Assembly (NCBI GenBank): GCA_017347465.1
Contig: AP021858.1
Span: 1,568,472 to 1,632,471 of the forward strand
From: Candidatus Nitrosymbiomonas proteolyticus
GTDB taxonomy: Bacteria > Armatimonadota > Fimbriimonadia > Fimbriimonadales > Fimbriimonadaceae
Direction: 5' to 3'
Length of the DNA stretch: 64,000 nt
The stretch's first letter is position 1, and every line of letters begins with the position of its first letter. Shown here in pieces: positions 12,284 through 16,870 of this stretch. The notes beneath the pieces were generated by a model. It was given only the letters and a program-made list of their open reading frames with translations, did not search any database and was not told where the DNA came from. The translations under genes and the position numbers were made by a program.

Positions 12284-12360
12284 ATTTGGTATTTGCAAAC
12301 GCTTGGTCGCCAATATCGGGTTGAATGTTTCCTGATATTTGATATTTGTAAATACCAAAT
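12284..12360. promoter_or_regulatory. Operator-like inverted repeat upstream of the AbiE-like pair
   Basis: The left arm ATTTGGTATTTGCAAA (12284-12299) and the right arm TTTGTAAATACCAAAT (12345-12360) are inverted copies with one mismatch in 16 bases, separated by 45 bases. This AT-rich block contrasts with the surrounding GC-rich DNA and lies just before the regulator gene, where autoregulators of AbiE-type toxin-antitoxin operons bind. CATAAT at 12365-12370 is the likely -10 box. Confidence 0.6.
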
Positions 12361-12376
12361 AGGCCATAATCTTGAT

Positions 12377-12970
12377 GTGGCAGTCTTACGCGGAATCGAT
12401 GTGGTTATTGCACTCAAAGTCGCCGCCCATCCGGACGTGCGGGGGCCATTCGACCGTCTTCGCGAGTTTGCAGACTCTCTGCGACGGCATCAGAGCAATC
12501 CAGAGGGCGATAGGCTGCCCCGAACTTACGACTCGCTCGCGCGGAGCCTAACCATCAGCTCCCAGACGGCCCACCAGGGGATTCGAACGTTGGCGAGCGC
12601 AAGGCTCTTTGACCTGCAGACGGGCACGGTGGTTCGACAGAACCTGGCTGAGTTCCTGATTCACGGCGTCAAGTACTGTTTTCCCCCAATTCGAGGAGGA
12701 ATTACGCGCGGCATACCGACCTCCTATGCCGGTTCGCCACTCGCTTCCCGTTTTCCGCAGGGGGACGCGCCGCCTCCCGTTTGGCCCCGTTCAAATGGGA
12801 TGGTGAAAGGCATGTCGTTTGAGCCGCTGCACAAAGTTGTCCCCATTGCAGCTTTGGCCGACCCCGCGCTCTCAGAACTCCTGGTTCTCGTCGATGCCGT
12901 TCGGGACGGTCAGGCTCGCGTGGCCGCAATCGCCATCGAAGAACTCAAGCAAAGGCTAGCTCAATCTTGA
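12377..12970 (+). CDS. AbiEi-like winged-helix regulator/antitoxin
   Basis: About 197 residues. The N-terminal part (LPRTYDSLARSLTISSQTAHQGIRTLASA) reads as a winged-helix DNA-binding domain. It is followed by HGVKYCFPPIRGGITRGIPTS, a motif seen in AbiEi-like transcriptional regulators, then a small C-terminal segment. In AbiE systems such a protein autorepresses the operon and neutralises a nucleotidyltransferase toxin. Its stop overlaps the next start by four bases (TTGA), showing translational coupling. The GTG at 12377, six bases after a CATAAT box, is favoured; GTG 12401 is an alternative. The annotation rests on motif resemblance and context, not on alignment. Confidence 0.65.
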   Translation: MAVLRGIDVVIALKVAAHPDVRGPFDRLREFADSLRRHQSNPEGDRLPRTYDSLARSLTISSQTAHQGIRTLASARLFDLQTGTVVRQNLAEFLIHGVKYCFPPIRGGITRGIPTSYAGSPLASRFPQGDAPPPVWPRSNGMVKGMSFEPLHKVVPIAALADPALSELLVLVDAVRDGQARVAAIAIEELKQRLAQS

Positions 12971-13662
12971 TCCCCTACGATTATCCCGCGTATCCCAACC
13001 TCGAACGCACGGTCGTGGCGTTGGGAAGCCTGGCGGACGAACTGCTCTTTGTGGGAGGGGCGACGATCGGGCTCTACGTGACCGAATTGCAGGTCCGGGA
13101 GCCCAGAGCGACAGAAGATGTGGACACGGTTTGCGAAGCAACAACCTACATCGAGCTTAGTCGCTTCGCGGATCGTATGCGGTCAATTGGTTTCAACGAG
13201 GACATGTCCAGCAACGTAATATGCCGCTGGACCAAAGGAGACCTGGTCGTTGATCTGATGCCCGTCGACGAGTCGGCGCTCGGCTTCCGGAACCGGTGGT
13301 ATCGAACAGCATTAGACGATCCTTGGCGCATAACCCTGGCGAATGGACAGCAGATTCGCATCCCAAAACCAGCGCTTGCCCTAGCGTGCAAGCTGGACGC
13401 GTTCGCCGACCGAGGTAAAGGCGACTTCTTCGGCAGCAAGGACTTTGAGGACATTGTTGTTCTCGTTGATGGCCGCGAATCGCTCGCGAACGAAGTGGCT
13501 GCGGCGCACGAGGCTGTTCGAGAGTACGTCGCTCAGGCTGTAGTCGATTGGATGAGGATTCCGGACTTTCCTTCGGCTGTTTCGGCGCATTTGCCGCCTG
13601 ACGCGGCAAGCCAAGCGCGCACTCTGCTGGTGCTGGAGCGGATGAGGCTTCTCAGTCAATAG
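12967..13662 (+). CDS. AbiEii/MenT-like nucleotidyltransferase (putative toxin)
   Basis: 231 residues with a nucleotidyltransferase fold signature. FVGGATIGLYV (residues 28-38) is followed by RATEDVDTV, with the two acidic metal ligands D51 and D53. A third acidic position is likely in GDLVVDLMPVD near residue 98. C-terminal residues 160-200 (KDFEDIVVLVDGR) match the helical half of AbiEii-type enzymes. In AbiE and MenT systems such enzymes modify tRNA or bind GTP to arrest growth during phage infection. Coupling to the AbiEi-like gene supports a toxin-antitoxin pair. The start is TTG at 12967. The exact family is not confirmed. Confidence 0.65.
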   Translation: MIPYDYPAYPNLERTVVALGSLADELLFVGGATIGLYVTELQVREPRATEDVDTVCEATTYIELSRFADRMRSIGFNEDMSSNVICRWTKGDLVVDLMPVDESALGFRNRWYRTALDDPWRITLANGQQIRIPKPALALACKLDAFADRGKGDFFGSKDFEDIVVLVDGRESLANEVAAAHEAVREYVAQAVVDWMRIPDFPSAVSAHLPPDAASQARTLLVLERMRLLSQ

Positions 13663-15597: not shown

Positions 15598-15743
15598 ACG
15601 AAAACTCGTGGGGACGAATCAACCGAGCACGGCAGTTCGATTCGGTCCAAGAGCATCATACCGAAAGGCTGGCGAGCGGCGGTGTGGCCCACTGGCGACT
15701 GCCAGAGTGAAGCGTTTGGGCCTGACGGCCGTATAATAGGAAC

Positions 15744-15965
15744 GTGGACAGCGAACTTACGATCGTGTTTGAACCTGCGGAGGAAGGCGGATTCACCGCT
15801 TTTATTCCGGAGGTGCCCGGAGCTATCTCCGAGGGCGAGACCCTCGAAGAGGCTCGCGCGATGGTGCTCGACGCTCTCCATGAGATCACTCTCTATCGCC
15901 GCGAGTCGGCGCTCAAAGCCAAGTCGCCCCGCTCGGTCATCGAGAGGGTCGCCCCCGCCTTCTAG
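15744..15965 (+). CDS. hicB: HicB-family antitoxin
   Basis: 73 residues. ELTIVFEPAEEGGFTAFIPEVPG is the standard HicB partial RNase-H-like fold, followed by the helix (SEGETLEEARAMVLDALHE) typical of HicB. It lacks a clear C-terminal DNA-binding domain, as in short HicB proteins. Start GTG 15744; TATAAT (15732-15737) is six bases upstream, so the message would be leaderless. Unlike normal hicAB pairs, the matching toxin gene is on the opposite strand and is broken (15962-16159), overlapping the hicB stop by four bases. Its present role is unclear: either an orphan or an antitoxin to another HicA. Confidence 0.9.
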   Translation: MDSELTIVFEPAEEGGFTAFIPEVPGAISEGETLEEARAMVLDALHEITLYRRESALKAKSPRSVIERVAPAF

Positions 15966-16159
15966 CTTAGGCTTGGCGGCTTTTCAATCCCAAGGTCGGA
16001 GCAAATTCGCCTAACTGTGTTGCGCTTGATCTCGTTGCGTCGCGGGATCGCGGCTGTCGCACCGTTGGCTGGATTCAGCCAGATCGCATGGCGTCCGCCT
16101 TCTCATTAGAGGCGAAAGCCCGAGTTTCGATGGTGCCGCTCGAACTCACACCGTTTCAT
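15962..16159 (-). pseudogene. hicA: HicA toxin gene inactivated by tandem stop codons
   Basis: Read from ATG 16159, with GGAGG just before it, the frame gives MKRCEFERHHRNSGFRL, then TAA TGA (16108-16103), then EGGRHAIWLNPANG through IPRRNEIKRNTVRRIC to the stop at 15962. The start and end match the HicA mRNA-interferase layout: an N-terminal MKRxxLxRHL part, the catalytic His in GRHAIW, and the NEIKxxxxRxICxxLGI end. Two adjacent in-frame stops fall where homologues have a hydrophobic/Arg pair. The PRHNEI histidine is also Arg. It converges on hicB. Confidence 0.85.
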
Positions 16160-16169
16160 CGTCCTCCGC

Positions 16170-16870
16170 CGCAATGGCCCTCACCATGAGTTCCGGAGGC
16201 CGGGGCCGTCCTTCTTGATTCTCGCCATTAGAGCAATTCTAACCCCGACGATGAGGATTCCTGCCCTGACGGGAGCTTCCGCAAGGGTGCCGGGAACAAT
16301 TGTGACAGCGGCCGAAGCGCCTGTCGGGAAGGGTGGTATGGTTTTCTGGCTCGCTGCAGCCCCAACGGGGCGAGCATTCACCAGCGAAGGGCAACGCCCT
16401 GGAAAGCGCGGGCCCCAGAATGACCGGCGGCCTGAAAGGCCGCGATACAATCGGGAGGATGCCGCAGTCCCTCGCCACCGTCCTGGTCCACGCCGTTTTC
16501 AGCACGAAGGACCGAACCCCTTGGATCGCACCGGCGATCCGGCAGGAACTGCATCCCTATATCGTCGGCGTCCTCGCCAACATCGGCTGCCCCTCGATCC
16601 AGACGGGCGGCGTCGAGGATCACGTCCATGCCCTTTGTTGTCGTTCGATGAACGGTATCTGTGGGATTGAATCCCGGCCCTTCAGGCCGCATCCTCTCTT
16701 ACGGCATTTCCTTTGTCCAGGGCTTCGCCCTTCGCTCTTGGATGAACGGCCCTTCGGCCTACGTGGCGACAAGGGCGCCCGCCGGCCGGGCACGCGCTGC
16801 CCCCGCGATGCTGGCGATCGCCCTCATCCATGAGTCCCGGAGGCCGGGGCCGTCGCGCTTGAGTCTTGCC
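16170..16870. repeat. REP-like hairpin cluster around the RAYT remnant
   Basis: Short palindromes occur in quick succession: GCCCCAACGGGGC (16359-16371), AGGGCAACGCCCT (16388-16400), GCGGCC-TGAAA-GGCCGC (16427-16443), and further GGCCCTTCAGGCC/GGGCTTCGCCC types at 16677-16760. A longer direct repeat, recognisable by TGAG..CCGGAGGCCGGGGCCGT, brackets the block at about 16185-16220 and 16835-16865. This is the pattern of REP elements mobilised by RAYT transposases. Confidence 0.6.
16459..16650 (+). pseudogene. Truncated REP-associated tyrosine transposase (IS200-like Y1)
   Basis: ATG 16459 follows GGGAGG and gives MPQSLATVLVHAVFSTKDRTPW, then IGCPSIQTGGVEDHVHAL, which is the N-terminal half of RAYT/IS200-like transposases with the HxH metal motif (HVH). 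Recognisable homology stops near 16640, and the catalytic Tyr and C-terminal helices are absent. The frame continues to 16833 but encodes unrelated residues. It sits within REP-like palindromes, its natural substrate, so the copy is a non-functional remnant. Confidence 0.75.

Follow-up and report, generated by a model that had tools for sequence, protein, structure and literature searches.

The window analysed here, a 64,000-nucleotide stretch of the genome of Candidatus Nitrosymbiomonas proteolyticus, holds an open hicB antitoxin gene that faces a hicA toxin gene interrupted by two stop codons on the opposite strand. The locus raises the question of whether this tail-to-tail layout belongs to the damage and of what keeps the antitoxin gene open once its toxin is gone. 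We observe the state of the sequence, a layout conserved across the class, recurrent toxin loss and a deletion in a sister genome, and we regard it as highly probable that the locus is a class-typical convergent type II hicBA module that lost its activity recently, with hicB passively open and heading to loss.

State of the hicB and hicA genes

On the forward strand, hicB occupies positions 15744 to 15965 and is an open frame of 73 codons with a GTG start and a TAG stop that encodes a small HicB-like antitoxin. On the reverse strand, a 65-codon HicA frame runs from the ATG at 16159 to the TAG at 15962 and is interrupted at positions 16103 to 16108 by tandem stops, TAA at codon 18 (16108-16106) and TGA at codon 19 (16105-16103). 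The two genes meet tail to tail and share exactly four bases, 15962 to 15965, a CTAG palindrome that contains both of their stop codons. Direct reading of the sequence places an SD-like GGAGG ahead of the hicA start (16167-16163, reverse strand), and codon 24 of the broken frame is still that of a histidine, which we take to be the catalytic one. The earlier note had described an intact hicB, a start-to-stop hicA frame with TAA TGA after codon 17 that keeps its ribosome site and histidine segment, and a convergent four-base overlap, and all of these readings were borne out.

The broken hicA frame matches PF07927 (HicA_toxin) at 30.8 bits against a cut-off of 27 with the two stops inside the match, and it is the sole match to this family in the 2.81-Mb one-contig genome. 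As the score exceeds the cut-off and the frame is not open over the whole domain, we classify it as a pseudogene of the family. The score argues against a chance identification, as does tblastn, by which many relatives were found to carry the pair in this orientation. No in-frame ATG, GTG or TTG occurs in the whole of the remaining frame downstream of the stops, so nothing that holds the catalytic-type histidine can be made, and a truncated product would contain the first helix only, going by the secondary structure of the intact homologue at locus L062.

The window HicB falls just under the Pfam cut-offs (25.2 of 27) and gave no match in an NCBIfam search; its family profile matches HicB chains of the PDB (6hpb_B, E 1.4e-7). 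The structure model of the protein (pLDDT 90.6) comprises three strands, one helix and a tail, and its best matches are HicB structures (best E 4.2e-3, none at or below 0.001). Profile and model matches thus both identify a small-type HicB with a partial RNase H fold and a HicB-like sequence, and within the 73 aa Pfam returned no DNA-binding family and no DNA-binding domain is apparent in the model. The intact HicA of L062 scores 39.9 bits against HicA_toxin, and its model (pLDDT 92.7; helix, three strands, helix) has its closest matches in HicA structures and in 1whz, which is HicA-like (best E 4.9e-3). H24 is invariant in the homologue alignment, and the dsRBD-like fold with a catalytic-type histidine was found for the intact L062 homologue only. 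The HicB of E. coli has a DNA-binding domain. The E. coli HicAB structure (PDB 6hpb) is the best or near-best structural and profile match for both proteins, and histidine 24 is kept here as well; unlike the window pair, the E. coli system has a longer HicB (138 aa in the entry) and a co-directional operon.

Convergent pairs across the class

A comparison with related genomes, which the earlier note had suggested, covered 113 genomes of the class searched with profiles of 17 HicB (A1) and 17 HicA (A2) sequences. We counted hicB places at A1 scores of at least 60 bits, which gave 31, and ran the HicA profile in six frames around each. A recognisable hicA lies beside 19 of these 31 close hicB homologues, tail to tail in every case (19/19), and is intact at 13 and damaged or vestigial at 6, while no hicA is recognisable beside the other 12. 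A further convergent pair (G080, 53.1 bits) was added by hand as the fourteenth intact one, which brought the set to 32 places. Overlaps of 4 bases are found in 8 of the 14 intact convergent pairs and an overlap of 6 in one, and the genes of the remaining 5 abut or lie 1-4 bases apart. Every A2 match of at least 70 bits in the class adjoins a hicB. At lower A1 scores, a co-directional pair with a distant HicA (G008, 54.2 bits) lies outside the 31, a second hicB-like gene of G094 (41.1 bits) is accompanied by a HicA-like stretch that is distant in sequence and co-directional, and other places, including C85, C102 and C168 of G014 (co-directional by coordinates), were left unclassified. No conserved third gene was found upstream of hicA, where the genes vary between loci; the upstream frames of G085 and G038 resemble each other, by eye only.

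The searches of the phylum took in 291 genomes. Of the 15 HicA loci examined there outside the class (L177-L191), 14 are preceded by a co-directional hicB and one has no visible hicB, and all 6 pairs examined in Verrucomicrobia and Acidobacteria are co-directional, so that 20 of 20 pairs examined outside the class are in the order hicB-hicA on one strand. The view of the earlier note that the convergent arrangement is not the usual hicAB order agrees with the pairs examined outside the class, but for this lineage the arrangement is not odd. In the hicB tree, built without G096 and G014b, a single branch (support 99/95) separates the convergent hicB genes from six co-directional ones. The hicA tree has too few columns, and the convergent genes do not group as a single clade in it (5 changes, 1 forced); hicA and hicB distances are correlated (Mantel r 0.61, n = 14, with 1 of 9999 permutations as high). 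Taken together, the branch in the hicB tree, the shared layout and the correlated distances argue for a single origin of the convergent layout. The layout is the norm of this clade and not part of the damage; no other was seen beside the 31 close hicB homologues, so it predates the inactivation and does not explain it.

Recurrent toxin loss and the fate of hicB

The six damaged convergent hicA genes comprise that of the window, a frameshifted gene (G014a), one that is missing its first ~21 residues (G025), one with a stop and a shift (G078), a remnant (G071, E 1.1e-4) and a C-terminal stub that is weak at 1.8 bits (G095a). Several of these genomes are MAGs in a fragmented state, and assembly errors may account for some of the frame breaks. 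In G078, G014, G025, G071 and G095 (L130, L120, L122, L125 and L112, respectively), the decayed-looking convergent hicA stands beside an open hicB. When mapped onto the hicB tree, the label 'intact' for hicA requires 13 changes, at least 7 of which are forced by starred branches, and the intact, damaged and absent states are scattered with no clustering beyond that of shuffles (478 of 500 as low).

By its hicB, the nearest locus to that of the window is L062 (G099a, UBA6659), in which both genes are intact and hicB is 81% and hicA 77% identical. Against L062, pairwise dN/dS comes to 0.08 in hicB and, with stop codons omitted, to 0.10 in hicA; both are rough values, as dS is near 1. The value for hicA argues that the gene stayed under constraint through most of the period after the split, and its inactivation looks recent from the sequence. 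On the window branch, hicB has 11 synonymous and 5 nonsynonymous changes; hicA has 6 synonymous changes and 7 that are not, with 14 sites unresolved, a pattern that cannot be clearly told apart from the 10 and 8 of the intact relative. In a second genome of the species, CP054189.1 (H1_ARM1; apparently G094), 320 bp have been deleted between two copies of GGTGCC, which lie at 15812-15817 and 16132-16137 of the window (forward strand) and of which one is left. The remnant consists of about 25 hicB codons and the first hicA codons between flanks that are 90-98% identical, and the -10 box of hicB differs as well. Toxin loss has thus taken two different routes within one species. The claim of the earlier note that the toxin was inactivated while the antitoxin stayed open is supported, and the deletion of most of both genes in CP054189.1 strengthens it.

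Judged by its family, an intact HicA would be a small mRNA interferase with a dsRBD fold, and HicB, with its partial RNase H fold and no DNA-binding domain, would bind and block it. hicB is probably driven by its own promoter as a leaderless mRNA, and hicA would be transcribed separately from the opposite side. The nonsense mutations remove all of HicA beyond codon 17, including the catalytic-type histidine, and leave no toxin. The states seen across the class follow the order expected of one-way loss, toxin first and antitoxin later. An antitoxin that has lost its toxin does no harm, which is probably why hicB, with its -10 box, is still open; the gene would be kept only passively and is most likely heading for loss, as in CP054189.1.

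Alternatively, selection might maintain hicB as an antitoxin with an anti-addiction role, or as a regulator, directed against HicA from mobile DNA, with the loss of hicA as an adaptive end state, which we hold to be unlikely. A hicB frame of 71-77 aa persists at 11 of the 18 places without an intact hicA, 73-aa frames occur in G015 and G050 with no trace of hicA, and the intact window hicB with its -10 box and mostly synonymous changes would suit such a role. On the other hand, hicB is shortened or stopped at 64 aa or less at the other 7 of the 18 places, while none of the 14 frames beside an intact hicA is under 68 aa (Fisher p 0.010, with the length cut picked after inspection of the data), CP054189.1 has lost most of its hicB too, and the window genome has no second HicA on which the antitoxin could act. 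Among the 12 places with no recognisable hicA, 7 have a shortened or stopped hicB, so the antitoxin frame often erodes after hicA loss. From what the earlier note had termed orphan antitoxin retention, the open hicB frame stands, but retention by selection is not supported: the inactivation is recent, and those 7 of 12 places are what would be expected if the open frame were a transient stage of decay. The locus is like orphan antitoxins left after toxin loss in its open antitoxin frame and broken toxin; it differs from them in that the broken toxin gene can still be recognised on the other strand and in that a genome of the same species shows a second route of loss.

That the hicA stops are sequencing or assembly errors and the gene is intact in the organism would fit the clustering of the hicA changes within few codons. 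We consider this very unlikely: in addition to the two stops, the window hicA departs from alignment A4 at 4 of its 18 invariant columns (by-eye comparison) with its length unchanged, so the damage is not one indel error and is untypical of that kind of error; moreover, the neighbouring genes are open and CP054189.1 lost the module independently. The hicA frame is otherwise open and retains its SD-like site, as would be expected if the stops were read through or bypassed by re-initiation to yield a regulated HicA, yet this is scarcely credible. Two different adjacent stops would both need to be read, no ATG, GTG or TTG is available in frame beyond them, intact relatives have sense codons at these positions and the standard code fits the neighbouring genes. 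Readthrough or recoding of both stops and internal re-initiation were rejected on the adjacency of two different stops and the lack of a downstream start.

Candidate expression signals and possible control by the layout

A -10-like TATAAT box (15732-15737, forward strand) lies 6 nt before the hicB start. In a survey of 31 of the 32 places (G014b was left out), with start codons assigned by us, a TATAAT-like hexamer (5 or 6 of 6) was found 6-9 nt ahead of the hicB start at 19 of 31 loci, the window included. The position of this candidate -10 box suggests that the hicB mRNA is leaderless, here and in most loci of the class. A scan of the locus gave no sigma-70 site with both hexamers. The scan found no terminator in the overlap between hicB and hicA, and 2 terminator-like sites occur in 1 kb versus 1.0 expected. 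On the other side, homology to L062 stops 13 bases upstream of the window hicA start, and the sequence beyond is a short repeat (16165-16240), so that hicA may have lost its original upstream region, which the repeat may have replaced. The repeat abuts the hicA start, has two partial copies (84% identical) ~650 bp away and at 205 kb in the genome, and is also present in CP054189.1.

In the main text of Gerdes 2024 (PMC10865869), HicA contexts are sorted into 14 classes, Classes 1-10 of which it presents as bicistronic operons; Classes 1 and 2, with a small HicB without DNA-binding domain, are described there as not experimentally analysed and their regulation as an open question. The word 'convergent' is absent from that main text, none of its 14 HicA classes is described so, and we found no description of convergent or opposite-strand hicA and hicB in the literature covered, which includes PMC4848639, PMC7154746 and PMC4963859 and few subscription papers. 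With a HicB of 73 aa (published range 63-103 codons) that has no recognisable DNA-binding domain and a HicA of ~65 aa, the window pair is like Class 2 as presented in that text; unlike the co-directional bicistronic operon of Class 2, it is convergent, overlaps at the 3' ends and has a broken hicA. What decays here is thus one copy of a convergent hicBA module that is specific to the clade and has a small HicB lacking a DNA-binding domain.

A broken toxin by itself is ordinary toxin-antitoxin turnover. The class adds to this a graded series, from intact pairs through stopped or frameshifted toxin, remnant, lone antitoxin and shortened antitoxin to deletion, and a layout that rules out a common mRNA for antitoxin and toxin. 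As control must work with two opposed transcripts, the question of small-HicB regulation is testable in this clade. It is plausible that the intact module would be under antisense control. The passages of PMC4963859 on type II modules of Synechocystis report antisense-located transcription units at seven of them, and for excludon-type genes, as treated in the relevant part of PMC7154746, convergence without a terminator is expected to give mutually antisense 3' ends, a likeness that here concerns the layout only. It is quite unlikely, in our estimate, that the convergent, end-overlapping layout constitutes a distinct control in which the leaderless hicB mRNA runs on into hicA and silences it as antisense at the level of RNA and HicB protein neutralises leaked HicA, a single gene thus serving as a type I-like RNA antitoxin and a type II protein antitoxin at once. 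In such a scheme, HicA, with its dsRNA-binding fold, might even act on the hicB/hicA RNA duplex. If true, dual control would explain the way in which a HicB that lacks a DNA-binding domain keeps its toxin in check.

Two further genes lie near the pair. Downstream of the start side of hicA, positions 16468-16656 (forward strand) encode a truncated IS200-like Y1 transposase (PF01797, 28.1 bits), the frame of which leaves the family after ~56 residues. At 12967-13662 (forward strand) lies a gene for an AbiEii-like nucleotidyltransferase (PF08843, 30.8 bits), of a type IV toxin-antitoxin family, and most of this gene falls within a 1.3-kb stretch (12298-13605) that is absent from CP054189.1.
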